Source: Saccharothrix obliqua (lineage in GTDB: Bacteria; Actinomycetota; Actinomycetes; Mycobacteriales; Pseudonocardiaceae). From it: a stretch of DNA of 64,000 nt. Shown one piece after another: positions 1 to 63,251 of this stretch. Positions within the stretch are counted from its first letter, which is position 1, and every line of letters begins with the position of its first letter. The DNA is taken from assembly GCF_019375475.1 (NCBI RefSeq), contig NZ_JAHXGQ010000012.1, positions 124,001 to 188,000 of the forward strand. The letters are read 5' to 3'. The position numbers were made by a program, and so were the translations under genes. Under the pieces are notes generated by a model. It did no database searches. It was not told the origin of the DNA and saw nothing but the letters and a program-made list of their open reading frames with translations.

Positions 1-36
1 GCGGGTCGCGGGCACGAGGTGGCGTTGTGGTCCTGA
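1..36 (+). CDS. possible 3' end of an upstream gene
   Basis: The first 12 codons in frame 1 are open and end with TGA at 34-36, overlapping the GTG start of the next gene. This would fit a translationally coupled upstream gene that is cut off by the window edge. Only 11 residues are visible, so nothing can be said about its product, and the reading frame itself is uncertain. Confidence 0.25.
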   Translation, partial: AGRGHEVALWS

Positions 37-20133: not shown

Positions 20134-20172
20134 CGCGCGATCGTCGTGGGGGACCCGATCAGAGGGGGCGCG

Positions 20173-36156: not shown

Positions 36157-36172
36157 AAGGGGGAGCGGAGCA

Positions 36173-37162
36173 GTGGCAACGCATTCCGTCGGCATCCTGG
36201 CGACCGGGTCGTACCTGCCCAAGGACGAGGTGACCAACGACGAGGTCGCCGCCCGCGCGGGCACCACGGCCGAGTGGATCGAGCGCAAGACCCGGATCCG
36301 CACCCGTCGGTACGCCGCACCGCACGAGGCGACCTCGGACCTGGCGGCCCGCGCCGCCACCGAGGCCCTGGACTCGGCACGCGTCCCGGCCGAGCGGATC
36401 GACTACCTGATCGTGTCCACGTCCACCGGCGACTCACCGCAGCCGCCGACCTCCTACCTGGTGCAGGACCTGCTGGGCGCGCACAACGCGGCCTGCTTCG
36501 ACGTCAACGTCGTCTGTAGCGGTTTCGTCTACGCGCTGGAACTGGCGCGGGGACTGGTCTCGCTGCGCCCGGACGCGCTGGCGCTCGTGGTCGCGGCGGA
36601 CGTCTACTCGCGCATCCTCGACCGCACCGACCGGCGCACGGCGGCGTTGTTCGCCGACGGCGCGGGCGCGGCGCTGGTCGGCGGGGTCGCCCACCCGTAC
36701 GGGATCATCGACGTCGACCTGTCCAGCCTGGGCGTGGCGAGCAACCTGATCCGCGTGGAGGCGGGCGGCAGCAGGCGGCCCGCGTCGCACGAGACCGTGG
36801 ACGACGGCGGTCACCACTTCAAGATGGACGGTCGCGGTGTCCGCGACTTCGTGGCGCGGCACGTGCCCGGCGCGTTGCGCAGGCTCGTGGACCGCGCCGG
36901 CGCCGACGTCGACCACTTCGTGCCGCACCAGGCGAACGGCGTGATGCTGACCGATCTGGTGGAACAGGCGGGTCTCACCTCCGCGCACACGCACCGCACG
37001 GTGGAGAAGTACGGCAACGTGGGCAGCGCCTCCGTGCCGGTGACGCTGGACGACGCCAACCGCGCCGGGTTGCTCAAGGACGGCGACCTCGTGCTCCTGG
37101 CCGGGTTCGGCGGCGGGATGGCGATCGGATCGGCCCTGCTGCGCTGGGCGGGTGCGGCGTGA
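36173..37162 (+). CDS. 3-oxoacyl-ACP synthase III (KASIII/FabH-like)
   Basis: A 329-residue thiolase-fold condensing enzyme with the complete FabH triad: Cys in NVVCSGFVYAL (about residue 114), His in VPHQANG (about 248) and Asn in YGNVGSAS (about 284). It should join an acyl-CoA to malonyl-ACP or malonyl-CoA to give a 3-oxoacyl product. Between CCR and a 3-hydroxyacyl-CoA dehydrogenase, its likely job is making the acetoacetyl (or longer 3-oxoacyl) thioester that becomes the CCR substrate, rather than priming the PKS, which has its own KSQ loader. The GTG at 36173 follows AAAGGGGG; the stop overlaps the next start. Confidence 0.9.
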   Translation: MATHSVGILATGSYLPKDEVTNDEVAARAGTTAEWIERKTRIRTRRYAAPHEATSDLAARAATEALDSARVPAERIDYLIVSTSTGDSPQPPTSYLVQDLLGAHNAACFDVNVVCSGFVYALELARGLVSLRPDALALVVAADVYSRILDRTDRRTAALFADGAGAALVGGVAHPYGIIDVDLSSLGVASNLIRVEAGGSRRPASHETVDDGGHHFKMDGRGVRDFVARHVPGALRRLVDRAGADVDHFVPHQANGVMLTDLVEQAGLTSAHTHRTVEKYGNVGSASVPVTLDDANRAGLLKDGDLVLLAGFGGGMAIGSALLRWAGAA

Positions 37163-38022
37163 GCGCCCGGATCGAGCGGGTGGGCGTCGTCGGGTGCGGC
37201 CTGATGGGCGCGGGCGTGGCGGAGGTCTCCGCCAAGGCGGGCCTGGACGTGGTCGTCGCGGTCACCGGACCTCCCGCCGCGGACCGCGGTCGTGCGCGGA
37301 TCACCGCGTCCCTGGACAAGGCGGTGGCCAAGGGCAGGCTCACCGCGTCCGCGCGGGACGACGCGCTGGGCCGGGTGCGGTTCGCCATCGGGTTGGAGGA
37401 GCTGGCGGACCGGCAGCTCGTGGTCGAGGCGGTGCGCGAGGACGAGCCGCTGAAGCTCGACGTGTTCGCCATGCTGGACAAGGTGGTCGAGGACGCCGAC
37501 GCGATCCTGGCCACCAACACGTCCTCGCTGCCGATCTCCCGGTTGGCGGGCGCGACCCTGCGGCCGAGCCACGTGGTCGGCGTCCATTTCTTCAACCCCG
37601 TGCCGGTGCTGCCGCTGGTGGAACTGGTCGGTTCGGTGCTGACCGGACCGGACACCCTCGACCGCGCGGAGGCGTTCCTCACCGGCACCCTGGGCAAGAC
37701 CGCCATCCGCACCCCGGACCGCGCCGGGTTCGTGGTCAACGCGCTGCTGTTCCCCTATTTGCTCTCGGCGGTCCGCATGGTCGAGTCCGGGGTGGCCACC
37801 GCCGAGGTGGTGGACCGCGGCATGGAGCTGGGGTGCGCGCACCCGCTGGGCCCGTTGCGCCTGGCCGACCTGATCGGCCTGGACACCACGGTGTCGATCG
37901 CGCGGGCGATGCACGCCGAGTTCAAGGAACCCCTGTACGCCCCGCCGCCCCTGCTGCTGCGCATGGTCGAGAGCGGGTTGCTCGGCCGGAAGTCCGGCCG
38001 CGGGTTCTACGAGTACGCATAG
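37159..38022 (+). CDS. 3-hydroxyacyl-CoA dehydrogenase (3-hydroxybutyryl-CoA dehydrogenase-like)
   Basis: A 287-residue protein of the HBDH family: NAD(P)-binding [11 protein letters not shown] (residues 8-18), NTSSLPIS, the catalytic-histidine segment [10 protein letters not shown] and the C-terminal helical domain with [13 protein letters not shown]. It reduces 3-oxoacyl- to 3-hydroxyacyl-CoA. With KASIII before it (GTGA overlap) and CCR at the head of the operon, it fits a dedicated route to alkylmalonyl-CoA; only the dehydratase (crotonase) step is missing here and must come from elsewhere. The TAG stop lies inside the AGGAG of the first PKS gene. Confidence 0.9.
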
Positions 38023-38032
38023 GAGACCACCG

Positions 38033-41000
38033 ATGAACCTGGACCAGGCCGTGGCGGTGGTGGGGCTGTCCTGCCGGTTGCCCGGCGCTCCCGACCCGGA
38101 GGCTTTCTGGCGGCTGCTGGCCGACGGCGTGGACGCGGTCGGCGAGGTGCCGCCCGGCCGCCCGGAGTACCCGGACCGGTCACCGCGTGGCGGGTTCCTG
38201 TCCGAAGTGGACTCTTTCGACGCGGGCTTCTTCGGCATCTCGCCGCGGGAGGCGGCCGGGGTGGACCCGCAGCAGCGGCTCGCGCTGGAGCTGTCCTGGG
38301 AGGCGCTGGAGGACGCCGGCATCGTGCCGTCCCGGCTCGGCGGCGTCCGGACCGGGGTGTTCCTCGGCGCGATCTGGGACGACTACGCGCGCCTGGTCCA
38401 GGCGGCCGGACCAGAGGCCGTCACCCACACCACGATCACCGGCCTGAGCCGCGGCGTGCTGGCCAACCGGGTGTCCTACACCCTCGGCCTCACCGGTCCG
38501 AGCATGGTGGTCGACACGGCGCAGTCGTCGTCCCTGGTCGCCGTGCGGCTGGCGTGCGAGAGCCTGCGTGGTGGCGGGTCCGACGTGGCGCTGGCGGGCG
38601 GGGTCAGCCTGAACCTGACCCCCGACGGGTTCACCCTCGCCCGCCGGTTCGGCGCGCTGTCCCCAGACGGCCGCTCCTACACGTTCGACGCGCGCGCCAA
38701 CGGGTACGTGCGTGGCGAGGGCGGCGGCGTCGTCGTGCTCAAGACGCTGCGCCGGGCCCTGGCCGACGGCGACCGGGTCCACGCGGTGATCCGCGGCGGC
38801 GCGGTGAACAACGACGGCGGCGGCGAGACGTTGACCGCGCCGCGCCAGGCCGCGCAGGAGGAGGTGTTGCGGCTGGCGTACGCCGACGCCGGGGTCGACC
38901 CGGCCCTCGTGCGGTTCGTCGAGCTGCACGGCACCGGCACGCCGGTGGGTGACCCGGTCGAGGCGGCGGCGCTCGGCGCGGTGCTGGGCGCGGGCCGGAC
39001 CGAGCCGCTGCTGGTCGGCTCGGTGAAGACCAACATCGGCCACCTGGAGGGCGCGGCGGGCATCGCCGGGCTGCTCAAGGCCGTGCTCTGCCTGCGTGAG
39101 CGGCAGGTGGCGCCCAGCCTGAACTTCCGCACGCCCAATCCCGCGATCCCGTTGGCGGAACTGGGGTTGCGGGTCAACGACGAGCTGTCGCCGATCTCCG
39201 CCGATCCGCTGTTCGCGGGCGTCAGCTCGTTCGGCATGGGCGGCACCAACTGCCACCTCGTGCTCTCGCCGCCGCCCACCACCACGCGGACGACCGCGGG
39301 CGAACCGGTCGCCGCGGTGCCGGTCCTGCTGTCCGGCCGCACCCCGGCCGCCCTGCGGGACCAGGCGGCGCGCCTGGACCGGTGGCTGGGGGAGAACCCG
39401 TCGACGGGACTGCCCGACCTCGCCCACGCGCTGGCCACCCGGCGCACGTCGTTCGAGCACCGCGCGGTCGTGCTCGCCGAGGACCACGCCTCGTTGCACG
39501 CGGCGTTGGGCGCGGTCACCGGCTCCGCGCCGCGACCCGGCGGGACGGCGTTCCTGTTCACCGGCCAGGGCAGCCAGCGCACCGGCATGGGGCTCGAACT
39601 GCACTCGACCTTCGGCGTGTTCGCCGACGCCTTCGACGAGGTGTGCGCCGCGCTCGACCCGCACCTGGACCGGGACCTGCGCGAGGTGGTGGCCACCGGC
39701 GACGGCCTGGACGTCACCGCCTACACCCAGCCCGCGTTGTTCGCGTTCGAGGTCGCCCTGCACCGGCTGGTCGAGCACTGGGGCGTGCGGCCGGACTTCC
39801 TGCTCGGCCACTCGATCGGCGAGATCGCCGCCGCGCACGTCGCGGGCGTGCTGTCCCTGCCCGACGCGGCGACCCTGGTCGCGGCGCGCGGGCGGCTGAT
39901 GCGGGAACTGCCGGCGGGCGGCGCGATGGTGTCGCTCCAGGCCGGCGTCGAGGAGGTCGCGCCCACCCTGGTCGCCGGCACCGCCGTCGCCGGTGTCAAC
40001 GGCCCGGCGGCCACGGTGGTCGCCGGTGACGAGGACGCCGTGGCGTCGGTCGCGGCGCTGTGGCGGGAGAAGGGGCGCAAGACCAAGCGGTTGCGGGTGA
40101 GCCACGCCTTCCACTCGCCCCGGATGGACCCGATGCTGGCGGCGTTCCGCGAGGTCGCCGAGAGCCTGACCTACCACCGGCCACGCGTCCCGGTCGTGTC
40201 GGCGGGCGACGTGACCTCGCCGGACCACTGGGTGCGTCACGTGCGGGACGCGGTGCTCTTCCTCGACGGCATGCGGCGGCTGGAAGCCGAGGGCGTCACC
40301 AGGTTCCTGGAGATCGGGCCGGACGCCGTGCTCAGCGCCCTGGGCCGTGACTGCCTGACCGCGCCCGCGGTGTTCGCGCCCGGCGCGCGGTCGGGCAGGC
40401 CCGAGGCGAGGACGTTGCTCGGCGCGGTCGCGACCCTGCACACCGCCGGGGTGGAGGTGGACTGGGCACGCGTGCTCACCGACGTCGGCGGCGGGACCGG
40501 GCAGCACGTCGCGCTGCCGACCTACGCCTTCCAACGCGAGCGCCACTGGCTCTCGCCACGCGTCGCCAGGCCCGCCGCGCCCGGAGGGGGCGAGGTGCCG
40601 GCCGAGCGCGACGGCCACGAGCCGGCGGACTCCGCCGCGACGGTGGCCGGGCTCGCCGGTGTGCCCGACGCCGAGCGCGGTGGCGGGGAGCCCGCCGCGG
40701 GGGCACCCGCGCTCGTCGGGGTGCCCGACGCCGAGCGTGGTGGTCGGGAGCCGGCGGAACCCGCCGCGGGGGTGCTGGCGCTCGCCGGTGTGCCCGACGC
40801 CGAGCGCGGTGGTCGGGAGCCGGCGGAACCCGCCACCGGTGTGCCCGGTGCCCAGCGCGGTGGCCGCGAGCCCGCGGAGTCCGCCGCGGGGGTGCTGGCG
40901 CTCGCCGGTGTGCCCGACGCCGAGCGCGACCACGTGCTGGACGAACTGGTCCGCACCGAGGTCGCCGCCGTCCTGGAGCACCCCGCGCCCGCGGAACTGG

Positions 41001-44000
41001 ACCTCGACCGGCCCTTCAAGGAACTCGGGTTCGACTCGTTCCTCACCGTGGAGCTGCGGGAGCGGCTGGCCGCGCGGACCGGGCTGCCGCTGCCGTCGAG
41101 CTTCGTGTTCGACCACCCCTCCGGTGCGGCGGTCATCCGCTACCTGCGGGGCGCGGGTGACGCCGAGCCGACCACCGCGCCCGCGGTCGTGCCGGACGGC
41201 GATCCGATCGCCATCGTGGGCATGGGCTGCCGGTTCCCCGGCGACATCGACTCGCCCGAGCAGCTGTGGCAGGCCCTGGTCGAGGGGCGCGACGTGATCG
41301 GCCCGTTCCCCACCGACCGCGGCTGGCCCACCGACCTGTACGACCCCGACGGCACCACGCCGGGCAAGCACCACGTCCGCGCGGGCGGGTTCCTGCGCGG
41401 CGCCGCGGAGTTCGACAACGACTTCTTCGGCATCTCGCCCCGCGAGGCCCTGGCGATGGACCCGCAGCAGCGGCTCCTCCTGGAAACCGGCTGGGAGGCG
41501 CTGGAGAACGCGGGCATCGCGCCCACCACCCTGCGCGGCACGCCGACCGGCGTCTTCGTCGGCACGACGTTCCAGGACTACGGGCCGCGGCTGGGCGAGG
41601 GCGCCGCGAACACGGAGGGCTACCTGATGACGGGCAGCACGCCCAGCATCGCCTCCGGTCGGATCGCCTACGCCCTGGGCCTGGAGGGACCCGCGCTCAC
41701 CGTGGACACGGCGTGCTCGGCGTCGCTGGTCGCGCTGCACCTGGCGTGCCAGTCGCTGCGTCGCGGCGAGTCCACCCTGGCGCTGGCGGGCGGCGTCACC
41801 GTCATGTCGACACCCGGCATCTTCGTCGAACTCACCCGGCAGCGGGCGTTGTCCGCGGACGGGCGCTGCAAGTCCTTCTCCGACGACGCCGACGGCACCG
41901 GCTGGTCCGAGGGCGTCGGGGTGCTCGTGTTGGAACGGCTGTCCGACGCACGCCGCAACGGCCACCCGGTGCTCGCGCTGGTGCGCGGGTCGGCGGTGAA
42001 CCAGGACGGCGCCTCCAACGGCCTCACCGCGCCCAACGGCACGCAGCAGCAGCGGGTGATCCGCCGGGCGCTGGCCGACGGCGGACTCACCGCCGCGGAC
42101 GTGGACGTGGTGGAGGCGCACGGCACCGGCACCCGGCTGGGCGACCCCGTCGAAGCACATGCCCTGCTCGCCACCTACGGCCAGGACCGCGACCGGCCGC
42201 TGTGGCTCGGCTCGGTCAAGTCCAACATCGGCCACACCCAGGCCGCGGCCGGTGTCGCGGGCGTGATCAAGGTGGTGCAGGCGCTGCGCCACGGCCTGCT
42301 CCCGCGCACCCTGCACGCCGACCGGCCGTCCGAGCGGATCGACTGGTCCGCCGGCGCGGTGTCGTTGCTCACCGAGGCCCGGCCGTGGCCGCGGACCGAC
42401 CGGCCGCGCCGCGCCGGCGTGTCGTCGTTCGGCATCAGCGGCACCAACGCGCACGTCGTCCTGGAGGAGGTCGACGAGCCCGACGCGGACCCCGAGCCGG
42501 CACACGTGTTGCCGCTCGTCCTCTCGGCCAAGGACCCGGTGGCGCTGGCCGAGCAGGTCCAGCGGCTGCGTGACCGGCCGGTCACGACCGGCGTCGCGCG
42601 GACGCTCGCGGTCGGGCGTTCGGTGTTCGAGCACCGCGCGGTGCTCGTCGGCGACACGGAGGTCACAGGCACCGCGCGGCAGCACGGCCGGACGGTGTTC
42701 GTCTTCCCCGGCCAGGGCTCGCAGTGGGCGGGCATGGCGGTCGGGTTGCTCGACGCCTCCCCGCCGTTCCGCGAGCGGTTCGCCGAAGCGGCCGAAGCGA
42801 TCGAGCGGCACGTGGACTGGTCCGTCGAGGACGTGGTGCGCGACGGGCGGTGGCTGGACCGGATCGAAGTCCTCCAGCCGGTGTTGTTCGCGGTGAACGT
42901 GGCGCTCGCCGCGCTGTGGCGCTCGTGCGGTGTCGAGCCGGACCTGGTCGTGGGGCACTCCCAGGGCGAGATCGCGGCGGCCTGCGTCGCGGGCGCGCTG
43001 GACCTGGCCGACGCGGCCCGGCTGGTCGTGCTGCGGTCCCGCCTGTTCGCCGACGAACTCGTCGGGCGCGGCGCGGTGGCCTCGGTGGCGTTGTCCCGCG
43101 CGGAGGTGGCGGAGCGGCTGCCGGACGGGCTGACCGTCGCCGGCGTGAACGGCCCGCGCTCGGTGACCGTCGCCGGTCCCGTCGCGGAGCTGGAGGGGTT
43201 CGTCGCGTCCTGCGTCGCCGACGGCGTCCGCGCCCGGGTCGTCGCCGCCACGGTCGCCTCCCACTCGCCGCAGGTGGAGCCGTTGCGCGAGCGGCTGCTC
43301 GACCTGCTGTCGTTCGTGTCGCCGCGAGTGGGCGCGGTGCCGGTGCTGTCGACGGTGACCGGCGAGGTGCTGGACGGTTCCGAGCTGACCGCCGACTACT
43401 GGTACGAGAACTGCCGCCGCCCGGTCGGGTTCGCCGAGGCGGTGCGCACCCTGCTGGACTCCGGTCACGACGTCTTCGTGGAGGTCAGTCCCCACCCCGT
43501 GCTGGTGATGGGCATCGAGGAGACGGCCGGGGGTACACCGGTCCTCGCGGTCGGCACGACCCGCCGCGACGACGGCGGCCCGGCGCGGTTCTGGGAGTCG
43601 GCGGCGCGGCTGTGGGTCGACGGCGTCCCGGTGGACTGGGGGCGCGCCCTGCCGCCCGCCCCGATCGTGCCCGCGCCGACCTACCCGTTCCGGCGCGAGC
43701 GGTTCTGGCTCGCACCCCCGCGCGGCGGCGTCGAGCCGGCAGCCTCCGGCCTGCACGCGACGGGGCACCCCTTTCTCGGCGTCGAGGTACCGCTGGCCGA
43801 CGACGACCGGACCGTGTTCACCGGACGGCTCTCGTCCGCCGTGCACCCCTGGCTCCTCGACCACGCGGCCCTGGCCACGGTCCTCCTCCCGGGCACCGGG
43901 CTCGTCGAGACCGCCCTCGCGGCGGGTCGGCGGGTCGGCGCCCCGGCGCTGGAGGAGCTGACCCTGGAGACGCCGCTGCTGCTGCCCGAGGGCGGTGTGG

Positions 44001-46144
44001 CGATCCAGGTGGTCGTGGAGCCGCCCGACGACACCGGTCGGCGAGGGGTGTCGGTGCACTCCAGGCCGGACGGCCAGTGGGTGCGGCACGCGACCGGAAC
44101 GCTCGCACCGCACGGCCCCGGCGAGCCGCCGACGCCGGCGGAGTGGCCGCCGCCCGGTGCGGAACCGGTCGACCTGACCGGGTGGTACGACCGCCTGGCC
44201 GACAGCGGTTACGACTACGGCCCGGCGTTCCGGGGCCTGCGTGCCGCCTGGCGCAGGGGCGACGAGGTGTTCGCCGAACTGGCTCCCGCGCCCGACACCG
44301 GGTTCGCGCTCCACCCCGCCGTGCTCGACGCCGCGCTGCACGCGGTCGAACTGGGCGTGCTGCCCCGCTCCGACCGGACGTGGCTGCCGTTCTCCTGGAC
44401 CGGTGTGCGGTTGTGGCGCGACGCCGCGGCGGCGAAGGTCCGGTTGTCACCCGCGGGGCAGGACGCGGTGGCGTTGCAGGTGTTCGACCGGGACGGCCTG
44501 CCGGTCGCGTCGATCGGCTCGCTGGTGCGGCGGCCGGTGTCGCCGGGACAGCTCGCGCCCGCACCGCTGCTGCGCCTGGAGTGGCAGCCCGTGCCGGTCG
44601 GCGCGGAGCCGTCGTTCACGGTGCTCGGCCTGGACGGCCTCCCCGGCGTGGTCGACGTGCCGGAGTTCGTGGTGGCGCCGGTGCGGCCGGAACCGGGCGA
44701 GGTGCCCGAGGCGGCGCGTGCGACCGCGCACCGCGCCCTCGGCCTGGCTCGCGCGTGGCTGGCCGACGACCGGTTCGCCCGCGCCAAGCTGGTCCTGCTG
44801 ACCTCCGGCGCGGTCGCGACCGGGCCGGACGACGACGTGCCCGACCTCGCCGCCGCCGCGGTGTGGGGCCTGATCCGCTCCGCCGAGGCCGAGCACCCGG
44901 GCCGGTTCGTGCTGGTGGACGCCGACGACCCGGCCCGGCTCGGCGTGGCGCTGGGCACCGGCGAGCCGCAGCTCGCGATCCGTGCCGGCGAGGTCCGCGT
45001 GCCCCGGCTGACGCGGGGCGTGCACGCCGCCCGCGCGGTCGAGTGGGGCCCCGACGACACGGTGCTGATCACCGGCGGCACCGGCGCGCTCGGCCGGCTG
45101 GTCGCCGGGCACCTGGTCGACCGGCACGGCGTCGGGCGGGTGCTGCTGGCCGGTCGCCGCGGTGGTCCGTCGGGCGGCGCGCTCACCGCGGTGGCGTGCG
45201 ACGTGACCAACCGCGAGGAGGTCCGTGATCTCCTCGTAGAGCACGCGGTGACCGGTGTGGTGCACATGGCCGGCGTGCTGGCCGACGGGCTGCTGGAGTC
45301 CCTGACACCGGACCAGGTGGACGCGGTGCTGCGGCCCAAGGTGGACGGCGCGTGGCACCTGCACGAGCTGACCAAGGACCTCAAGGCGTTCGTGTTGTTC
45401 TCCTCGGTCCAGGGCGTGGTCGGCGGCGCGGGGCAGGCGAACTACGCGGCGGCGAACGTCTTCCTCGACGCGCTCGCCCAGCACCGCCGGGCCAACGGGC
45501 TGCCCGCGACCTCGATGGCGTGGGGCCTGTGGGCCGAGGGCGGCATGGAGGCGGCGCTGGACGACGGCGACCGCGATCGGCTGCTCCGCACGATCGGCAT
45601 GACACCGCTGTCCGCCGACGAAGGCGTGGCGTTGTTCGACGACGCGCTGGCCGCCGACCACGCGGTGGTGGTGCCCGCGAAGCTCGACCCGCGTGGTGAC
45701 GTGCCCGCACCGCTGCGCGGCCTGGTGCGCCGTGCCGCGCGTGCCGAGGCGACCGACGTGTCCTTCGCCGACCGCTTGGCGGCCACGCCGGAGCAAGAAC
45801 GCGAGCGCGCGCTGGTCGACCTGGTCCGGGCGCTGGTCGGCGAGACGTTGGGGCACAACGGGTCGGTGGACGCCCGCCGGGGCTTCAAGGAACTCGGGTT
45901 CGACTCGCTGACCGCGGTGGACCTGCGCAACCGGCTCAACCGGGCGACCGGTCTGCGGCTGCCCGCCACGGTGGTCTTCGACCACCCGACACCGGCCGAG
46001 CTGGTGGGCCGGCTGCGGACCGAGCTGTTCGGCGTGCCCGAACCGGTGGCGGAGGAGGAGCCCGCGGTCGTCGTCGGCGACGAGGACCTGATCGACGCGA
46101 TGGACGTGGACGACCTGATCCGCCTGGCGCGGGACGGGACCTGA
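38033..46144 (+). CDS. type I modular PKS: loading module plus module 1 (KSQ-AT-ACP-KS-AT-DH-KR-ACP)
   Basis: A 2703-residue protein. The first KS has Gln at the active site (DTAQSSS, Q164), marking a decarboxylating KSQ loader. Its AT (GHSIGE, S594) has HAFH and [12 protein letters not shown], typical for malonyl, so it should give an acetyl starter. ACP1 (GFDSF) follows a repetitive linker at about 873-966. Module 1 has an intact KS (C1228) and an AT (S1643) with IEVLQP and VASH, the methylmalonyl/alkylmalonyl group. Its DH has H1944 in [10 protein letters not shown] (Gly of HxxxG changed to Ala), YGPAF and LDAALH. The KR is complete (TGGTGALG, Y2471 in NYAAAN, LAD in place of LDD, so probably B-type), and the ACP is GFDSL (S2625). 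The C-terminus is an acidic docking helix. There is no ER. Confidence 0.95.
40651..40930 (+). repeat. in-frame tandem repeat in the loading-module AT-ACP linker
   Basis: GVPDAERGG(R)EPAEPAAG-type units begin near 40651, 40711, 40780, 40831 and 40900, with periods of 60, 69, 51 and 69 bases, all multiples of three. They encode residues 873-966. The last GVPDAER is the natural start of ACP1 (compare its partner sequence DRVLLDLV in the second PKS), so the array seems to have grown by duplicating the ACP leader. The repeats are Pro/Ala/Glu/Arg-rich and probably flexible. Confidence 0.9.
43358..43419 (+). repeat. 62-bp identity between AT domains of modules 1 and 3 (copy 1)
   Basis: Identical over 62 bases to 51554-51615. 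It encodes the segment [20 protein letters not shown] of the two alkylmalonyl-type ATs. Identity over silent positions indicates recent duplication or gene conversion between the modules. Confidence 0.85.
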
Positions 46145-46157
46145 AGGGGGACGAGGC

Positions 46158-49100
46158 ATGGCCGGCACACCGGAGGCGGTGGTGGACGCGCTGCGCGACG
46201 CGCTCAAGGAGGTCGCGCGGTTGCGCCGGCGCACCGCCGAACTCGAAGCGGGCCGGGGCGAGCCGATCGCGATCATCGGGATGAGCTGCCGCTACCCGGG
46301 CGGCGTGGACTCGCCCGACGACCTGTGGCGGCTGGTGGCCGAGGGTCGTGACGCGATCTCGGACTTCCCGACCGACCGCGGCTGGGACCTGGCGCACCTG
46401 TTCGACCCGGACCCCGAGCGGCCCGGCACCTCCTACACCCGGCAGGGCGGTTTCCTGCACGGGGCGGCCGAGTTCGACGCCGCGTTCTTCGGTATCTCGC
46501 CGAACGAGGCGTTGGCCATGGACCCGCAGCACCGGCTGGTCCTGGAGCACGCGTGGGAGGTCGTGGAACGCGCGGGCATCGACCCGACGTCGTTGCGCGG
46601 CACCGCCACCGGTGTGTTCGTCGGTGCGATGTACCACGACTACGGCCCACCGCTGCACGTGCCGCAGTCCGGTGTGGACGGTTACCGGCTCACCGGCAGC
46701 CAGGCGAGCGTGCTGTCCGGTCGGGTCGCCTACACCCTCGGGCTGACCGGCCCGGCGATCACCGTGGACACCGCGTGCTCGTCGTCGCTGGTGGCGTTGC
46801 ACCTGGCGGTCCAGTCGCTGCGGCGCGGTGAGTGCTCGCTGGCCCTGGCGGGCGGTGTCGCGCTGATGGCGACGCCGGGCACGTTCGTGGAGTTCAGCCG
46901 TCAGCGGGGCTTGGCCCGTGACGGCCGGTGCAAGTCCTTCGCCGCCGCCGCGGACGGCACGGGCTGGTCCGAGGGCGTCGGCGTGCTTCTGGTGGAACGG
47001 CTGTCGGACGCTGTACGCAACGGGCGCCGCGTGCTGGGCGTGATCCGGGGCAGCGCCGTCAACCAGGACGGCGCGTCCACCGGCCTGACCGCGCCCAGCG
47101 GTCCGGCGCAGCAGCGCGTCATCCGGGCCGCGATCGCCGACGCGGGGCTCACCGCGGCCGATGTCGACCTCGTCGAGGCGCACGGCACCGGCACCCGGCT
47201 GGGCGACCCGATCGAGGCGCAGGCCCTGCTGGCCACCTACGGGCAGCACCGGGAGCGGCCGTTGCTGCTCGGCTCGGCCAAGTCCAACCTCGGGCACGCG
47301 CAGGCCGCGTCCGGGGTGGCCGGGGTGATCAAGGTGGTGGAGGCCATGCGGCACGGATTGGCGCCGCGCACCCTGCACGTGGACGCGCCGTCGCCGTACG
47401 TCGACTGGGAGTCCGGCTCGGTGGAGCTGCTGACCGAGGCCCGGCCGTGGCCGCGGACCGGGCGTCCGCGCCGGGCGGCGGTGTCGTCGTTCGGCATCAG
47501 CGGCACCAACGCGCACGTCGTGCTGGAGCAGGCGCCGCCGGTCGCCGACCAGACCGCGGCCGACCCGCCCCCGGTGCTCCCGGTCGTGCTGTCGGCCCGG
47601 TCGCCGGCCGCGCTGCGGGCGGTGGCCGGGCGGCTGCGCGAGGCGGCGGCGACGCTGGAGCCGTTCGACGTGGCGCACACCCTGGCCACCACGCGTGCCG
47701 CCCTGGACCACCGCGCGGTGCTCTTCCCGACCGACCGCGACTCGCTGGCCTCCCAGCTGGGGGTGTTGGCGGACAAGGGCTCCGCCCCGGTGCTCGGCAC
47801 GCGGGCGGACGGCGGCCTCGCGCTGCTGTTCACCGGCCAGGGCAGCCAGCGGCCCGGGATGGGCCGCGACCTGCACGCCGCCCACCCGGTCTTCGCCGAG
47901 GCGTTCGACGCCGCGTGCGCCCACCTGGACCCGCACCTGGACCGGTCGCTGCGCGACGTGGTGTTCGGCGACGACCCCGACCTGCTCGACCGCACCGGCT
48001 ACACCCAGGCCGCGTTGTTCGCGTTCGAGGTCGCGTCGTTCCGGCTCGCCGAGTCCTGGGGCGTGCGGCCGGACTACCTGATCGGCCACTCGGTCGGCGA
48101 GATCGTCGCCGCGCACGTGGCCGGGGTGCTGTCCCTGCCGGACGCGTGCGAGCTGGTCGCGGCCCGCGGCACGCTGATGGGCGCGCTCCCGGCGGGCGGG
48201 GCGATGGTGTCGGTGCTCGCGCCCGAGGACGAGGTGGCCGAACTGGTGGCGGGCACGCCGCTGGTGTCGATCGCGGCGGTGAACGGGCCGACCTCGGTGG
48301 TGTTCTCCGGCGCCGCCGGCGAGGTGGACCGGATCGCCGCCGAACTGGCCGCGCGCGGACGCCGGACCAGGCGCCTGCGGGTCAGCCACGCGTTCCACTC
48401 GCCGCTGGTCGAGCCGGTGCTCGCCGAGTTCGGCCGGGTCGCGGCGAAGCAGGCGTTCGCGCCGCCGCGGTTGCCCGTGGTGTCCGCGGTGACCGGCCGC
48501 CTGGCCACGGCCGCGGAACTGACCTCGCCCGACTACTGGGTGCGGCACGCCCGCGAGGCGGTGCGGTTCCACGACGGCGTCCGGCTGCTGCTCGACGAGG
48601 GCGTGGTCACCTTCCTGGAACTGGGCCCGGACGCGGTGCTCGCCGCGATGGCCCAGGACGGGCTGGGGCGCACCGACGTCGTGGCGACCTCGGTGCGCCG
48701 CCGGGGCCACGACGAGGTGAGGTCGTTCGCGCTCGGCGTGGCCGAGGCGTACGCGAACGGCGTCGACGTGCGGTGGGCGGACCTGCTGGCCGGTGGCCGG
48801 AAGGTCGACCTGCCGACGTACCCGTTCCAGCGGCGGCGGTACTGGCTGGGCGCGCCGGAGGTCGTGGTCGAACGGGAGGAGCCGGAGGCCGTGGTCGAGC
48901 CGGCGGAGGCGGCGGCACTGCGCGGGCCGGACCGCGACCGCGTCCTGCTGGACCTCGTGCGCGACGAGGTCGCGGCGGTCCTCGGCCACCCCGACCGGTC
49001 CGCCGTCCGGGCGCGCGACACGCTCAAGGACCTCGGCTTCGACTCGCTGGCGGCGGTGAAGCTGGGCAACCGCCTCGCCGCCGCCACCGGCCTGGCGGTG

Positions 49101-49280
49101 CCCGCGACCCTCGTGTTCGACCACCCGACCCCGGCCGCCATCGCCGGGTTCCTGCGCGACGAACTCGACGGGTCGGTCGACGTGGCAGCGGTGCGGGCGC
49201 CGGTCGTGGCCGACGGGCTGGACGACACGTCCGACGACGACCTGTTCCGGTTGATCGACAACGAGCTGGGGGCGCTGTGA
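46158..49280 (+). CDS. type I modular PKS module 2 (KS-AT-ACP)
   Basis: A 1040-residue single-module PKS without reducing domains. An N-terminal coiled-coil docking helix (residues 6-33) precedes the KS with C207 in DTACSSS. The AT (GHSVGE, S645) carries [12 protein letters not shown] and HAFH, the malonyl signature. The ACP has GFDSL (S963), and the C-terminus ends in a docking motif ([13 protein letters not shown]). It should add one malonyl unit and leave the beta-keto group unreduced. It starts 13 bases after the first PKS and overlaps the third by GTGA, so all three are made in order. Confidence 0.95.
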
Positions 49281-52200
49281 CGTCGGACGAGCGGAAGCTG
49301 CGGGACTACCTCAAGCGGGTCACCGCGGAGTTGCGCAGGCGGACCGGCGAGCCGATCGCGATCGTCGGCATGGCCTGCCGGTTCCCCGGCGGCGTCCGCA
49401 CGCCGGACGAGCTGTGGGAGCTGGTCGACGCGGGCCGGGACGCGATCACGTCGTTCCCCGACGACCGCGGCTGGGACGTCGACGCCCTGTACGACCCCGA
49501 ACCCGGGAAGCCGGGCGCGAGCTTCACCCGCGAAGGCGGCTTCCTGCACGACGTCGCCGACTTCGACGCGGGGTTCTTCGGCATCTCACCGCGCGAGGCG
49601 CTGGCCATGGACCCGCAGCAGCGCCTGTTCCTGGAAACCGCCTGGGAGGCGCTGGAGGACGCCGGCATCGACCCCCTGTCGCTGCGCGGCACCGACACCG
49701 GCGTCTACGCGGGCTGCGCGTCGGAGGACTACGCCGCGCTCTTGGCCACGCCGCCGCCGGACGTCGAGCCGTACCGGCTCACCGGCACGGCGGGCAGCGT
49801 GCTGTCCGGTCGGGTCGCCTACACCTTCGGCCTGGAGGGTCCCGCGATCACCGTCGACACGGCGTGCTCGTCGTCGTTGACCGCGCTGCACCTGGCCGGG
49901 CAGGCGCTGCGGGCCGGTGAGACGTCGCTCGCGCTCGTCGGCGGGGTCACCGTGCTCAACACCCCAGACCCGTTCGTGGACTTCAGCCGCCAGCGCGGGC
50001 TCGCCGCGGACGGGCGCTGCAAGGCGTTCTCGGCGCGGGCCGACGGCACCGGGTTCGGCGAGGGCGTCGGCGTGCTGGTCGTGGAACGGCTGTCCGACGC
50101 GCGGCGCAACGGCCACCCGGTGCTCGCCGTCGTCCGCGGCAGCGCGGTCAACCAGGACGGCGCGTCCAACGGGCTGACCGCGCCGAGCGGACCCGCGCAG
50201 CGCCGGGTGATCCGCGCGGCGCTGGAGCAGGCCCGGCTGACGCCCGCCGACGTGGACGTCGTGGAGGCGCACGGCACCGGCACCAGCCTGGGTGACCCGA
50301 TCGAGGCACGGGCGCTGATCGCCACCTACGGTCAGGACCGCGACCGGCCGCTGTGGCTGGGGTCGGTGAAGTCCAACCTCGGGCACACCCTCGCGGCCGC
50401 CGGGGTGGCGGGCGTGATCAAGGTCGTGCAGGCGATGCGGCACGGCAGGCTGCCGCGCACGCTGCACGTCGACGAGCCGTCGCCCCACGTGGACTGGAGT
50501 GCCGGCGCGGTGGCGCTGTTGACCGAACCGGTGGCGTGGCCGCGCGGCGATCGCCCGCGGCGCGCGGCCGTGTCCGCGTTCGGGATGAGCGGCACCAACG
50601 CGCACGTCATCCTCGAAGAGTCCGACGTGGACACTGTCGATCCGATGGAAGCGTCCGAAGTGGACGGTTCGACGCCCCTGCTGTTGTCGGCGCGTGGCGA
50701 GGCGGCGCTCCGCGAGCAGGCGGCCCGGTTGCGCGGCCGGGGTACCACGCCGGCCGTCGCCCGCACCCTGGCCGTGCACCGCGCGGCGTTGGAGCAGCGC
50801 GCCGTCGTCCGCGGCGAGGCGGGGCTGGCGGCGCTGGCCGCGGGCGAGCCGTCGGCGGACGTGGTCCGCGGCACGGCCCGCGACCGCGACCGGGCGGTGT
50901 TCGTGTTCCCCGGCCAGGGTTCCCAGTGGGCGGGCATGGCGCTGGACCTGCTGGCGTCCTCCCCGGTGTTCCGCGAGCGGTTCGCCGAGGTGGCCAAAGC
51001 CGTCGAGGAGCACGTGGACTGGTCGGTCGAGGGCGCGTTGCGCGGCGAGGTGTCGCTGGAGCGGATCGAAGTCGTCCAGCCGGTGCTGTTCACGGTGCAC
51101 GTGGCGCTGGCCGAGCTGTGGCGCGCGCACGGCGTCGTGCCGGACGCGGTCGTGGGCCACTCCCAGGGCGAGGTGGCCGCGGCGTGCTTCGCGGGCGCCC
51201 TCTCCGTGGCGGACGCCGCGCGGCTGATTGTGACGCGGTCCCGGCTGTTCGCCGAGGAGCTGGTCGGCCGGGGCGCGGTGGCGTCGGTGGCGTCGCCGGT
51301 CGACGAACTGGACCTGCCCGAGGGGTTGGCGGTGGCCGGTGTCAACGGGCCGCGCTCGGTGACGGTCGCCGGTCCGCCGGCCGAACTGGAGCGGTTCGTC
51401 GCGGACCGCGTCGCCGCCGGTGTGCGCGCGCGGGTCGTCGCCGCCACCGTCGCCTCGCACTCGCCCCAGGTGGAACCGCTGCGGGAACGGCTGATCGAGC
51501 TGCTGTCGTTCGTCTCCCCGGTGCGCGGCGCCGTGCCGCTGTACTCCACGGTCACCGGCGAGGTGCTGGACGGTTCCGAGCTGACCGCCGACTACTGGTA
51601 CGAGAACTGCCGCCGGCCGGTCGGCTTCGAGCCGGTGGTGCGCGCGCTGCTCGACCACGGCCACGACGTGTTCATCGAGGCCAGCGCCCACCCCGTGCTC
51701 ACCGCGCCGGTCGTGGAGATCGCCGAGGAGGTCGGGGCCGACCCCGTCGTGGTCGGGTCGCTGCGCCGCGGCGAGGGCGGTCTGGAGCGGTTCCGGCTGT
51801 CGGCGGGCGAGCTGTGGGCGCACGGCGTGCCGGTGGACTGGGCGACCGCGCTGCCCGCGGTCGGTCCCGCGCCGCTGCCGACGTACCCCTTCCAGCGCGT
51901 GCGCTTCTGGCCGGACCACGAGCGGAGCGCACCCGAACCCGCGGACGGCTTCTGGACGGCCGTGGAGCGGCAGGACGTGGCGGGCCTGGCCGACATGCTC
52001 GGCGTCGACGCGTTCGTGGTCGGGGAGCTGGTGCCCGCGCTGGCCGCGTGGCGGCGTGAGCGGTCGGCCGCCGACGAGCGCCGTTACCGGGTGCGGTGGC
52101 GTCCCGTCGCCGACGGGCCGGTGCCCGCGTTGACCGGGACGTGGCTCGTGGTGGGGGAGGACACGGCGGACGTCGTGCCCGCGCTGGAGGCGCACGGCGC

Positions 52201-54136
52201 GACCGTCGTCCGCGACATCGGACCGGGCATCTCCGGTGTGGTCGCCCGCGCCGACGTCGGCGCGACGCTCGCCCTGGTCCGGGACCTCCTCGACGCGGGC
52301 GTGAGCGCGCCGATCTGGTCGATCACCCGCGGCGCGGTGTCCACGAGCGGCGCCGACCCGCTGCACGACCCGGAGCAGGCGCAGGTCTGGGGGCTGGGCC
52401 ACGCCGTGGCCGTCGAGCACCCGCACCTGTGGGGCGGCGTGGTGGACCTGCCGCGAAGGGTGGACGACCGCGTGCTCACCCGCCTCGTCCGCGTGTTGAC
52501 CGGCGACGAGGACCAGGTGGCGATCCGCGAGAGCGGCACGTACGTCAAGCGGCTGGCGCGTGGTGGCCGCCCGGCGCACCGGCCCTGGACACCGCGCGGC
52601 ACGGTCCTCGTGACCGGCGGCGAGCACGGCGACCACGTCGTGCGCTGGCTGGCCGACCGGGGCGTCCGGGCGGTGGTCTGCGACGCGACCGACCGCGACG
52701 AGCTGGCGGAGGTGCTCGCCCGCACCCGGCCCACCGCCGTCGTGCACACCGCCGAGGTGCGTGGCGAAGGGCCGGTGGAGGACGTCACCGGGGAACGGCT
52801 CGCCGAGATCCTGCGCGCCAAGGTCGTCGCGGCGCGCAACCTGCACGACCTGGCCCCGGACACCGAACTCGTGTTCTTCTCGTCGGTGGCCGCCGTGCTG
52901 CCTGCGGGGCCGGGGCTCGGCGGCTTCGCGGCGGCCAACGCCTACCTCGACGCGCTGGCGCAGCACCGCATCGGCCTGGGCCTGCCCGCCAGGTCGATCG
53001 CCTGGGGCGTGTGGGACGACGGCGACGAGGACCGCCGCGCCCGCCTGGCCCGCCGCGGCCTCGGCACGATCCCGCCGAGCGCCGCGCTCAAGGCGTTGCC
53101 GGAGGTGACCGGCGGGCTGGTAGCCGACGTCGACTGGCCCGCGTACACCAGGGCGTTCGGGGCCCGCCCGCTGGTGCGCGACCTCGTCGCGCCGCACCGG
53201 GAAGCCGAGGAGGCCGACCCGTTCGCCGGCCTCGCCGACCTGCCCGAGGCCGAGCGCGGCCGGCGGGTGCTGGACGTCGTGCGGCGACGGGTCGCGGCCG
53301 TGCTCGGCCACTCCGGGATCGACGCCGTGCCGCCGGGAAGCGGTTTCCTGGAGCTGGGCATGGACTCGTTGACCGTGGTGGAGCTGCGCAACCAACTCGC
53401 CGCGACCACCGGCATCCGCCTGCCCGCGCGGATCGTGCTGGACACCCGGACACCCGAGGGGCTGGCGGACTGGCTGCTGGCGGTGGCGCTGGGCTCGACG
53501 CCGCCGCCTCCCGAGCGCTCGGACGCACCGCGGCTCGTCCCGCTCGCGACGGGACCGGCGACGCCCGCCCTGATCTGCCTGCCCACGGTGCTCGCCACGT
53601 CCGCGCCGCACCAGTTCGCCCGGTTCGCCGCGTGGTTCGCGGGCACGCGGACCGTCTCGGCGGTCGCCCTGCCCGGCTACCTGGCCGGCGAGCGACTGCC
53701 GCCCGACCTCGGGTCGCTGGTCGCCGACATCGCGCGCATCGTGCGTGGTGCCGGGCCGGTCGCGCTCGTCGGCTACTCCTCGGGCGGCCTGCTCGCCCAC
53801 GCCGTGGCCCGCGAGCTGGCGGCGGGCGGCGCACCGCCGCACGCCGTCGTCCTGCTCGACACCCACCGGTCCGGCCCGCCGCCGGAGCGGGTGCCGTTCG
53901 GCGAGCTGACGCCACCCGACCGGCGGCGGACCGCAGCCGCCGACCACTACCTGCGGCTGCTGGCGGACTGGTCGCCCGGCGGGGACGCGCCGCCGACCCT
54001 GCTGGTGCGCTCGACCGACGGTGCGCGGTGGGACCTGCCCCACGTGTCGGTCGAGGTGCCGAGCACCCACCTCTCCCTGATCGAACAGCACGCCGACGAC
54101 GCCGCCCGCGCGGTGGAGCGGTGGCTCGAACCCTGA
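49277..54136 (+). CDS. type I modular PKS module 3 with thioesterase (KS-AT-KR0-ACP-TE)
   Basis: A 1619-residue protein starting at GTG 49277, inside the stop of the preceding gene; the frame also stays open upstream, but that part lies in the second PKS and is not used. The N-terminal docking helix is typical ([15 protein letters not shown]). The KS has C197 and the AT (GHSQGE, S629) has IEVVQP and VASH, like module 1. The KR looks dead: the NADPH motif is TGGEHGDH (residues 1113-1120) instead of TGGTGxLG, and the catalytic Tyr is Phe1217 (GGFAAAN). The ACP is GMDSL (S1364). A type I thioesterase fills residues 1415-1619 with nucleophile GYSSGG (S1501), Asp in LLDTH and His in STHLSLI. It should add an (alkyl)malonyl unit, leave the ketone and release the chain. 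Confidence 0.94.
51554..51615 (+). repeat. 62-bp identity between AT domains of modules 1 and 3 (copy 2)
   Basis: Second copy of the 62-base segment at 43358-43419, within the AT of module 3. Confidence 0.85.
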
Positions 54137-54148: not shown

Positions 54149-55579
54149 GTGCGACAGGTGCTGGTGGTCGGAGCGGGTCCGTGCGGTCTCGCCGCGGCGT
54201 GCGCGCTGCGGCGGCACGGCGTCTCGGTGCGGGTCGTGGAGTCCGCGCTCGAACCACGCAAGGGGAGCCGGGCGGTCCAGCTGTGGCCGCCCGCGCTGGA
54301 AGTGCTCGACGACCTCGGCGTGCTCGACGAAGCGTTGGCCGCCGGGCAGCGGGTGCACGCCATGAGCTACCACCTGGCCGGCGGGCCGACGCTGCGCGTC
54401 GCGGTCGGTGCCGAGAACGAACCGCTGCTGCTGCCCCAGGAGACCACCGACGGGCTGCTGGAAGGCGCGCTGGCGGAGCTGGGCGTCCGGGTCGAACGCG
54501 GCACCGCGGTCACCGACGTGGTGGCCGGGGACGGGTTCGTCAAGGTCGAGGTGACCGGTCCGGACGGGCCGGAGGTGATCGAGGCGGACTGGCTGCTCGG
54601 CGCGGACGGCGTGCACAGCACCGTGCGCGAGCGGCTCGGTGTGGAGTTCCCGGGTGCGCAGGTGCCGATGCCGTTCCTCATCGCCGAAGGCGAGGTCGAC
54701 GGCGAGTACGAGCAGGGCGCCGTGCACTACTTCCTCGGTCGCACGGGTTCCCTGGTGTTCGCGCCGATGCGGCACGACGTGGTCCGCATCGGTGCCATCG
54801 TCGCCGCCGCCACCCCGGAGACGCCGGAAGGCGTTCAAGCGCTGCTGGACGAACGCGGTCCCGGTGGGCTGCGGTTGACCGGCGTCGACCGGATAGCCAA
54901 GTTCACCAGTCACGAGCGCATCGCCACCGCGTTCCAGGGCAAGCGCTGGTTCCTCCTGGGCGACGCCGCGCACACCCACTCGGCGGTCGGCGGCCAGGGG
55001 CTCAACCTGGGCCTCCAGGACGTGCGCAACCTGGTGTGGCGGCTCGCCGGCGTCATCCACGGCCGGTTCGACCCGGCCGTCCTCGACTCCTACGACGCCG
55101 AGCGCCGGACGGCGGCGGAGCAGGTCGTCGGCATCACCCGCCGGTTCGTCCGGATGTTCACCCTCGGCCCGTTCGGGGCCAAGGTCCGCAACGCGTCGTG
55201 GAGCGCCCTGGAGTCGTCGGGGCTGCTGCGCCGCTGGTTCGCGCCACTGGTCGCGGGCAGGCGCGTCCACTACCCGGACGTGCTGCTGGGCACCGGCCGC
55301 CGCCGGAGCACGCGGGCGCCGGCCCGGGTGGTGGCCGCGGCCGGGCGCGACCCGGCGCGGCTGCGGCTGGTGACCACCGGTCCCGCCGCCGGCGCGGTCG
55401 CCCGGCTGGCCGCCGCGATCGCCGACCGCGCGCCCGACCGCGTGGCGCACCACCACCTGGCCCGCGGCCGTGCCGGTTTCCTGGTGCTGCGGCCGGACGA
55501 CTACGTCGCGGCCCGCGGTACCCGGCCCGCCGAGCTGGCCGACGTCGAGGAGTCGCTGAACGCCCTGGCAGCACGATGA
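54149..55579 (+). CDS. FAD-dependent monooxygenase (aromatic/phenol hydroxylase family)
   Basis: A 476-residue flavoprotein monooxygenase. The N-terminal dinucleotide fold has VVGAGPCGLAAACAL (GxGxxG at residues 7-12). The DG motif lies in LLGADGVHSTVRE and the second FAD motif is FLLGDAAHTHSAVGGQGLN. The C-terminal third resembles the thioredoxin-like domain of phenol-hydroxylase-type enzymes, without known catalytic cysteines. It should hydroxylate or oxidatively rearrange the released polyketide using NAD(P)H and O2; an enolised pyrone or cyclic diketone is a plausible substrate (inferred). The GTG start has ACGGAGG nine bases upstream and follows the TE by 12 bases, so it belongs to the PKS operon. 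Confidence 0.9.
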   Translation: MRQVLVVGAGPCGLAAACALRRHGVSVRVVESALEPRKGSRAVQLWPPALEVLDDLGVLDEALAAGQRVHAMSYHLAGGPTLRVAVGAENEPLLLPQETTDGLLEGALAELGVRVERGTAVTDVVAGDGFVKVEVTGPDGPEVIEADWLLGADGVHSTVRERLGVEFPGAQVPMPFLIAEGEVDGEYEQGAVHYFLGRTGSLVFAPMRHDVVRIGAIVAAATPETPEGVQALLDERGPGGLRLTGVDRIAKFTSHERIATAFQGKRWFLLGDAAHTHSAVGGQGLNLGLQDVRNLVWRLAGVIHGRFDPAVLDSYDAERRTAAEQVVGITRRFVRMFTLGPFGAKVRNASWSALESSGLLRRWFAPLVAGRRVHYPDVLLGTGRRRSTRAPARVVAAAGRDPARLRLVTTGPAAGAVARLAAAIADRAPDRVAHHHLARGRAGFLVLRPDDYVAARGTRPAELADVEESLNALAAR

Positions 55580-62862: not shown

Positions 62863-63251
62863 TCGTCGCGGCTGTTGGCCTGGTCGTACTCGGCACGGGC
62901 GGCGGAGATGTTGCCCCGGTTGCGCCGCGCCCAGTCGGCCAGCCGCTCCAGCGGGTCGTGCAACTCGCGCGACATCTCCGTGCCGGTGTACTCGACCTTG
63001 GGCGGGACGGTGGCGTACACCTTGCGCACGATCAGGCCGTCCCGTTCGAGGTTGCGCAGGGTCAGCGTGAGCATCCGCCTGCTGATCCCCTCGATCCGGC
63101 GCTCCAGGTCGGTGAACCGCACCGGCCCCTGCGCGGTCGCCAGGATGATCTGCACGCTCCACTTGCCGCCCACGCGGTCGATCACCTCGCGGATCGGGCA
63201 CGCCACGTCGTGAATGGCCTCGTCGGTCACACCGGTGTTCCCCTGGGACAT
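62859..63251 (-). CDS. HxlR-family (winged-helix) transcriptional regulator
   Basis: A 130-residue MarR-like winged-helix regulator of the HxlR type: ACPIREVIDRVGGKWSVQII near residues 17-36 and the recognition region RFTDLERRIEGISRRMLTLT at about 44-63. The cysteine in ACPI can be a redox or aldehyde sensor in this family. ATG at 63251, with GGAAGGAGG upstream. It is divergent from the DUF427 gene and convergent with the KASIII-like gene. The first codons are duplicated upstream of the MFS gene, which hints that it controls that promoter or once had a twin there. Confidence 0.9.
   Translation of the reverse strand: MSQGNTGVTDEAIHDVACPIREVIDRVGGKWSVQIILATAQGPVRFTDLERRIEGISRRMLTLTLRNLERDGLIVRKVYATVPPKVEYTGTEMSRELHDPLERLADWARRNRGNISAARAEYDQANSRDD
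63228..63250. repeat. 23-bp segment of the HxlR start duplicated at 60292-60314
   Basis: Intact copy of the repeat described upstream of the MFS gene; here it is coding sequence for the N-terminus of the regulator. Confidence 0.75.

Follow-up and report, generated by a model that had tools for sequence, protein, structure and literature searches.

A modular polyketide synthase cluster of Saccharothrix obliqua with an EpxF-family flavoenzyme and a putative ethyl-substituted 2-pyrone product

The PKS genes and their neighbours

The window analysed here is a stretch of 64,000 nucleotides from Saccharothrix obliqua (C4:124001-188000), taken from an assembly of 8.04 Mb in 49 contigs. Its subject is a gene cluster built around three polyketide synthase (PKS) genes, PKS1, PKS2 and PKS3, whose open reading frames (ORFs) are collinear and almost contiguous, as shown in Table 1. 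A small ethyl-substituted chain, plausibly released as a 2-pyrone, is predicted from their domains and motifs, and a flavoenzyme of the EpxF family is encoded downstream.

The domain order KSQ-AT-ACP and KS-AT-DH-KR-ACP in the first protein, KS-AT-ACP in the second and KS-AT-KR0-ACP-TE in the third, which the original prediction had read at 38033-54136, was confirmed by the ORFs, Pfam and motifs. Pfam detected two KS, two AT, a DH, a KR and two ACP domains in PKS1, a docking region, KS, AT and ACP in PKS2, and a docking region, KS, AT, partial KR, ACP and TE in PKS3, and the domain boundaries given in Table 1 were chosen by hand and are approximate. A KS, an AT and an ACP in each module with their active sites kept, together with docking between the subunits, are the marks of a modular cis-AT type I PKS. 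The loading KS carries the motif VDTAQSSSL and is thus a KSQ, and the AT motifs read, from the loading module to module 3, HAFH, VASH, HAFH and VASH. Module 1 has a DH with both its His and its Asp and an intact KR (TGGTGALG, Ser, ANYAAAN). Module 2 is without a KR, and in the KR of module 3 the NADPH motif is broken (TGGEHGDH) and Tyr is replaced by Phe (GFAAAN), so that by sequence no active KR lies in the last two modules, as befits a 3,5-diketo acyl chain. Pfam found no C-methyltransferase domain in module 3. The TE carries GYSSGG together with an Asp and a His kept among its relatives; the TE region alone gave no match in the PDB at E 0.1, and in the window (53552-54133) it is devoid of two stretches, of about 11 and 12 residues, that each of the six aligned relatives has. 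Additional modules next to the cluster were ruled out, only four KS matches being found on contig C4 (245,631 bases), all from PKS1-3; other PKS loci on other contigs of the same genome leave room for a trans-acting module.

Directly upstream of the PKS genes and on the same strand lie the genes of a crotonyl-CoA carboxylase/reductase (CCR), an ordinary KASIII and a 3-hydroxybutyryl-CoA dehydrogenase (HBD) (34834-38022), and from 34834 to 62862 successive genes are spaced by 16, -4, 10, 13, -4, 12, 307, 242, -4, 167 and 28 bases. The translated KASIII retains its Cys, His and Asn motifs and probably supplies the C4 unit. A second CCR above the TIGR01751 cut-off is encoded elsewhere in the genome, on contig C1.

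The two P450s, FAD monooxygenase, acyl-CoA dehydrogenase (ACAD)-like protein and KASIII-like protein that had been noticed earlier were all recovered by Pfam or library matches. The FAD monooxygenase (FMO), which begins 12 bases after PKS3, needs the start at 54149 because its GxGxxG FAD motif lies ahead of the alternative start at 54227, and its closest PDB matches are polyketide oxygenases and rifampin monooxygenases (4k2x, a polyketide oxygenase/hydroxylase, 5vqb and PgaE). P450a is nearest to CYP126 and CYP125-type chains; its I-helix region reads TGLEQPRN, with Gln at a position where many P450s carry Thr, and EQPRN recurs in five of its eight relatives, the pattern not being found in the other three. 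The KASIII-like protein has DpsC, ChlB3 and CerJ, acyl-transferring or starter-selecting KASIII relatives, as its nearest solved relatives. Ser replaces its catalytic Cys (EVKQASNGG), a nucleophile shared with DpsC, whereas Asn is aligned to the catalytic His of VLPHMGW in DpsC, which in these alignments ChlB3 and CerJ also do not have; it thus resembles DpsC and CerJ in family and nucleophile but not in the active-site His. At the end of the window, a gene that is presumably of the DUF427 kind possibly marks the edge of the cluster.

Table 1. Genes of the cluster and domains of the three PKS proteins (coordinates of the window).
Feature	Positions	Strand	Evidence and remarks
LuxR-type large ATP-binding regulator (LAL)	31873..34572	+	AAA_16 and GerE domains
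CCR	34834..36156	+	TIGR01751 553.7 bits (cut-off 378.55); start codon uncertain
KASIII, ordinary type	36173..37162	+	NF006829 303.5 bits (cut-off 249); TIGR00747 273.3, below cut-off 292.1
HBD	37159..38022	+	NF005875 447.4 bits (cut-off 319)
PKS1, 2703 aa	38033..46144	+	Pfam domains and motifs
Loading module, PKS1	KSQ 38042-39292; AT 39548-40462; ACP 40898-41122	+	AT HAFH
Module 1, PKS1	KS 41198-42472; AT 42692-43630; DH 43748-44572; KR 44633-45712; ACP 45803-46036	+	AT VASH
PKS2, 1040 aa	46158..49280	+	Pfam domains and motifs
Module 2, PKS2	KS 46257-47531; AT 47820-48770; ACP 48936-49172	+	AT HAFH; no KR
PKS3, 1619 aa	49277..54136	+	Pfam domains and motifs; GTG start, 4-base overlap with PKS2 stop
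Module 3, PKS3	KS 49346-50620; AT 50897-51832; KR 52067-53236; ACP 53252-53491; TE 53552-54133	+	AT VASH; KR degenerate
Class A FAD monooxygenase (FMO)	54149..55579	+	PF01494; best PDB match 4k2x, E 1.9e-42
Cytochrome P450 a (P450a)	55887..57149	+	Nearest solved structure CYP126, 5li6
EpxF-family flavoenzyme	57392..58987	+	9gn5, E 5.6e-104
Cytochrome P450 b (P450b)	58984..60225	+	Nearest 8yhn and other P450s
Major facilitator superfamily (MFS) exporter, DHA2 kind	60393..61787	+	TIGR00711 219.8 bits, slightly below cut-off 230.2
DpsC/ChlB3/CerJ-like KASIII-type protein	61816..62862	+	4xs7 (DpsC) E 1.1e-68; ChlB3 1.3e-59; CerJ 9.4e-56
HxlR-like regulator	62859..63251	-	Label from sequence; no NCBIfam match at E 1e-20
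DUF427-like protein	63361..64000	+	Continues beyond window end; relatives (about 60%) beside the cluster in G691 and G593

Relatives of the cluster and conservation of its PKS

With the flavoenzyme as bait (E 1e-60), matches were found in three of the 397 genomes of the order, the window's own among them, and those in the other two stand beside non-ribosomal peptide synthetase (NRPS) adenylation and KS proteins without the remaining gene set (labels read from the sequence, as are those of the aldo/keto-reductase-, TetR-, oxoamine-synthase-, MATE- and sigma-factor-like genes below). The same bait revealed 16 loci in the species-genome collection, 13 at 39-53% and three distant ones at 25-28%, with the best match (53%) in Streptomyces sp. 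DvalAA-14, where the same gene set is present as far as the contig end. Matches occur in four of the 35 genomes of that genus and in 29 of the 394 of its family, and when the 14 to 77 kb surrounding the matches were examined in each of these 29, the gene set proved to be carried by eight of the 394 sampled genomes, namely G397 (DvalAA-14), G691, G593, G461, G649, G531, G415 and G421.

The counts of shared genes include the window, making nine clusters, and some of the stretches are cut by contig ends. Both P450s are found in 9/9 clusters, with P450a always adjoining the flavoenzyme, and the FMO in seven, in each of which its gene directly adjoins that of the terminal PKS. CCR, KASIII and HBD are present in seven of the nine, as is an MFS exporter at >50% identity, and the LAL regulator in eight, its relatives at 36-42% and absent from the G531 stretch (a 21.9-kb contig). 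The DpsC-like protein was found in four clusters (window, DvalAA-14, G421 and G461), and the HxlR regulator likewise in 4/9. Aldo/keto-reductase-like and TetR-like genes that are absent from the window lie in or beside the clusters of G415, G691 and G593 (L061, L085, L086, L089). Only four of the 393 plasmid records matching the flavoenzyme cover 80% of it, at identities of at most 40%. A KR-ACP-TE query over the order matched 76 of the 397 genomes, its own included, and among the matches listed none but the window's own reached the TE, the best being 49% over residues 3-512 of 707. Searches of open-access full text brought up no paper that could be tied to this gene set.

Individual clusters depart from this plan. 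The DvalAA-14 contig ends inside PKS1, and the two matches to a PKS3 query there reach neither KR nor TE. G461 has one additional KS-AT-DH-KR-ACP module, and its chain would be longer and doubly unsaturated. In G421 the first AT groups with loading ATs, the CCR is split and the ACAD ORF is short; a loading module is fused there (L062, L063) to a KS with a module-1-type CSASL motif, followed by a module-3-type AT-KR-ACP-TE, and several ORFs are broken. Assembly collapse or decay is likely at this locus, which was left out of the module-2 count and kept for module 3.

The KR of module 1, aligned in four clusters (window, G691, G593 and, twice, G461), is intact in all of them, whilst that of module 3 is degenerate in all seven clusters seen, the window included. 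Its Tyr is replaced by Phe in the window and G531 and by His in G691, G593 and G461; G415 keeps Tyr with an altered NADPH motif, and G421 keeps Tyr and has lost Asn and the NADPH motif. Of the five clusters in which module 2 was seen, the window and G461 have no KR there, G691 and G531 have a degenerate one, and that of G593 is an uncertain case, with the catalytic letters kept and the NADPH motif altered. From this survey, the ethyl-beta,delta-diketo end looks conserved across the family, with one uncertain case. The TE motif is GYSSGG in six of seven clusters and GHSSGG in G421, with one Asp and one His in all seven, which we take to have their usual roles in a TE.

The ATs of modules 1 and 3 had been predicted to take alkylmalonyl units, which the VASH motif and the CCR cassette sharpen to probably ethylmalonyl. 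VASH is termed an ethylmalonyl motif in PMC6090053 and PMC10646177. Because both alkyl ATs carry VASH and the CCR, KASIII and HBD genes lie upstream, the open alkyl group is probably ethyl at both alkyl positions; a dedicated CCR and ethyl-type ATs are the two features expected of a PKS fed with ethylmalonyl-CoA. In a quick tree of 49 AT domains (28 HAFH, 7 VASH, 1 VPSH, 7 YASH and 6 YAAH), all 28 HAFH ATs fell on one side of one branch, and the seven VASH and one VPSH ATs of the cluster family formed one group (SH-aLRT 99), separate from the YASH and YAAH ATs, all of which came from other PKS loci of the window's genome. Within the window, the VASH ATs of modules 1 and 3 are nearest each other (73% identity, SH-aLRT 88), the module-1 AT is HAFH in G593, G461 and G691, and that of G649 is truncated after GHSQG, the alkyl-type serine motif. 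The simplest account would be that an AT of the ethyl type passed from module 3 to module 1 of the window. All seven clusters in which the module-3 AT was seen have an alkyl-type one (six VASH, one VPSH), and thus the alpha group that such a flavoenzyme would oxidise is conserved.

A flavoenzyme related to EpxF

The protein described earlier as an ACAD-like flavoprotein is present, but it is a relative of EpxF and not an ordinary ACAD. Its best PDB match was 9gn5 (EpxF; E 5.6e-104), the next standing at 1.6e-18, and an AlphaFold2 model (13 sequences, mean pLDDT 81) again matched 9gn5 best (TM 0.86, E 2.4e-36; next 1.5e-19), so the likeness in family and fold is nearly full length, as measured against EpxF and not against its kin EpnF and TmcF. 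EpxF, the epoxyketone-warhead synthase of epoxomicin, was characterised on a free beta-keto acid; its reaction proceeds from decarboxylation to an enolate, after which hydride is taken from the adjacent alkyl carbon (PMC12624316). In that account Arg273 serves substrate binding and decarboxylation and its Ala mutant is inactive, and Ser406 serves epoxidation, S406A halting at the unsaturated ketone.

At the positions of Arg273, Ser406 and Gly408 the window enzyme has Met253, Ala379 and Asn381, respectively, and at that of Phe227 it has Phe. Homology and fold are thus those of EpxF, but Arg273, Ser406 and the C-methyltransferase domain in the module that would make a gem-dimethyl beta-keto acid are missing; neither an NRPS nor a C-methyltransferase domain was seen in the window cluster, in contrast to the EpxF, EpnF and TmcF epoxyketone systems. 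An alignment of 44 rows was made, comprising nine of the cluster family, which was defined by gene neighbours and not by residues, and 35 others including EpxF. Columns were sought in which a single residue fills 95% or more of the 35 other rows and no more than three of the family rows, and two emerged. Arg273 is present in 35/35 others and lost in seven of the nine family rows (Met 1, Ala 3, Gln 3, Arg 2), and Gly408, likewise in all 35 others, is Asn in every family row. The Ser406 column holds Ala in six family rows and Ser in three.

In the flavoenzyme tree a single branch separates the cluster family from the other rows (ultrafast bootstrap 99, SH-aLRT 96). Met, Ala and Gln at position 273 fall in three separate sub-lineages, and the Arg-keeping G461 and G531 are sister to the Gln lineage (90/97). 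Either Arg would have been lost several times, and the enzyme would then depend less on an anchor for the carboxylate, or it would have been lost once and regained once. A sister lineage of the flavoenzyme (L101, L103; G724, G499) stands beside a KS-AT-ACP protein with a stretch like a pyridoxal phosphate (PLP)-dependent alpha-oxoamine synthase.

Predicted product and competing readings

From the domains and motifs, a decarboxylated malonyl primer would be extended with ethylmalonyl (processed by KR and DH), malonyl and ethylmalonyl units, and the last ACP would carry CH3-CH=C(Et)-CO-CH2-CO-CH(Et)-CO-S-ACP. The tetraketide length, alkenyl end and two retained late ketones of the original prediction are supported by the motifs of the window and the degenerate module-3 KR in the seven clusters seen. 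Enol lactonisation, spontaneous or driven by the TE, would give 3-ethyl-4-hydroxy-6-(pent-2-en-3-yl)-2-pyrone (C12H16O3, [M+H]+ 209.117), and such a release is plausible, though the TE motifs do not separate lactonisation from hydrolysis. A macrolactone or a hydroxyl-derived delta-lactone was ruled out, as no active KR lies beyond module 1, and so was a thiotetronate-type ring, no sulphur-transfer gene or NRPS cyclisation domain being found among the cluster genes. The FMO, the flavoenzyme and the two P450s would then oxidise the released product, and a derivative oxidised beyond this core is the probable end product.

An enolised 3-ethyl-4-hydroxy-2-pyrone would show the same arrangement as the enolate in EpxF, with the carboxylate locked in the ring. 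If the family enzyme acts on the pyrone there is no free carboxylate to hold, and the loss of Arg273 would be expected, which would link the predicted pyrone to the flavoenzyme; the loss makes a ring-closed substrate more attractive and proves nothing. The EpxF relative would perform the dehydrogenation half only, taking a hydride from the alpha-ethyl substituent of the 4-hydroxypyrone in its enol form to give an electrophilic 3-ethylidene-2,4-dione (C12H14O3), with no decarboxylation, as Arg273 is missing, and probably no epoxidation, with Ala at the Ser406 position. An ethyl-bearing chain closed to a 2-pyrone and then oxidised, with the EpxF relative as a non-decarboxylating dehydrogenase, is the best explanation we can offer, held tentatively and at somewhat less than an even chance. 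The wider proposal, that in this family an epoxyketone-warhead flavoenzyme has become a dehydrogenase of a small 3-ethyl-4-hydroxy-2-pyrone, does not decarboxylate and yields a reactive 3-ethylidene-dione warhead, is rather doubtful; if true, it would constitute a second, NRPS-free route from the EpxF fold to an electrophilic natural product, on a purely polyketide line. The cluster opens a testable question, namely what an EpxF fold does once the decarboxylation Arg is lost, for which the window and its eight relatives provide natural variants at 273 (Arg, Gln, Ala, Met), all of them with Asn at 408. The prediction also points to a small product class that can be sought by exact mass, for example in Streptomyces sp. 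DvalAA-14.

Several observations speak against the pathway through an oxidised ethylpyrone. Ser406 loss says little, since Ser is present in only 11 of the 35 rows outside the family, and because G531 and G461 keep Arg273, decarboxylation may be ancestral or may still occur in these two. No crotonase was seen among the cluster genes to accompany the CCR, KASIII and HBD. The module-1 DH carries Ala at a position occupied by Gly in the DHs of G691 and G593 and by Asp in those of G461, which casts a small doubt on its activity. Nor does VASH prove an ethyl unit, for it also occurs inside some published methylmalonyl patterns. An FK506 AT given VASH showed no change (PMC6090053), and AT4 of divergolide, which has VASH, accepts isobutyrylmalonyl-CoA (PMC6490886). 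Finally, the TE of the piericidin PKS releases a free beta,delta-diketo acid, and it was with this TE inactivated that the last module reportedly gave the pyrone in vitro (PMC9112059); by this analogy the present TE could equally hydrolyse its chain. The piericidin PKS is likewise modular, offloads a beta,delta-diketo chain by a C-terminal TE and has an FAD hydroxylase in its cluster, but an amidotransferase there leads to a pyridone (PMC9112059), and none was seen in the window cluster.

Hydrolysis by the TE would yield the free alpha-ethyl-beta,delta-diketo acid (C12H18O4), with no 2-pyrone on the pathway; the EpxF relative, alone or after spontaneous CO2 loss, would then form the alpha,beta-unsaturated 1,3-diketone (C11H16O2), and the monooxygenases a furanone, 4-pyranone or epoxyketone. 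Such a course agrees with the piericidin precedent, with the two family rows that keep Arg273, and with the action of EpxF on a free beta-keto acid (PMC12624316) and that of EpnF, as PMC5719088 cites it, on a beta-keto acid bearing two alpha-methyl groups. The matlystatin cluster similarly joins an EpnF homologue, the decarboxylase-dehydrogenase MatG, proposed to form a vinyl ketone, to a discrete TE and an ethylmalonyl-type pathway (PMC5719088). However, matlystatin is a hybrid NRPS/PKS peptide and MatG, compared here by description only, is proposed to act on an alpha-methyl beta-keto acid (PMC5719088); the substrate type would fit enone formation of the MatG kind, yet Arg273 is lost in the window. 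The window enzyme and six relatives are without this residue, the Ala mutant of EpxF being inactive, and module 3 has no methyltransferase domain. We regard hydrolysis as possible and somewhat unlikely.

It is improbable that the pyrone itself is the main product, with the flavoenzyme off the pathway or serving the extender pool as an acyl-CoA dehydrogenase for an unsaturated alkylmalonyl unit. ACADs do supply unusual extender units in some clusters, e.g., TcsD of FK506, and a CCR cassette is present here, but the flavoenzyme groups with EpxF and not with ordinary ACADs (E 5.6e-104 against 1.6e-18), and its gene adjoins P450a in 9/9 clusters. Least probable of all is that the KASIII-like protein (61816-62862) offloads the chain from the ACP or adds a second acyl group to give an ester or C-acylated skeleton, as DpsC, ChlB3 and CerJ might suggest, for it occurs in only 4/9 clusters, some of them cut by contig ends, and has Asn at the position of the DpsC His.

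If the ethylpyrone pathway holds, the core has close counterparts, nectriapyrone being its O-methylated methyl analogue. Nectriapyrone, gibepyrone and fumigermin (fungal) and the germicidins (type III PKS) belong to the predicted class of small 2-pyrones (PMC8788799, PMC7034978), but they come from iterative fungal type I or type III PKSs and carry methyl groups, whereas the window has a modular PKS and, as predicted, ethyl groups.

Elsewhere in the window, three consecutive genes at 27-3852 are possibly the end of a separate biosynthetic locus; they encode a PLP-dependent relative of diaminopimelate decarboxylase, a protein of the SbnA/cysteine-synthase kind (TIGR03945 232 bits, below cut-off) and a MATE-like membrane protein. 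Two ABC-exporter-like half-transporters, with no family above cut-off, adjoin each other at 14411-17823 with TetR-like genes near them, and a membrane-anchored relative of sulfite dehydrogenase, below family cut-offs, is encoded at 21584-23083 near a sigma-factor-like gene (20146-20769).

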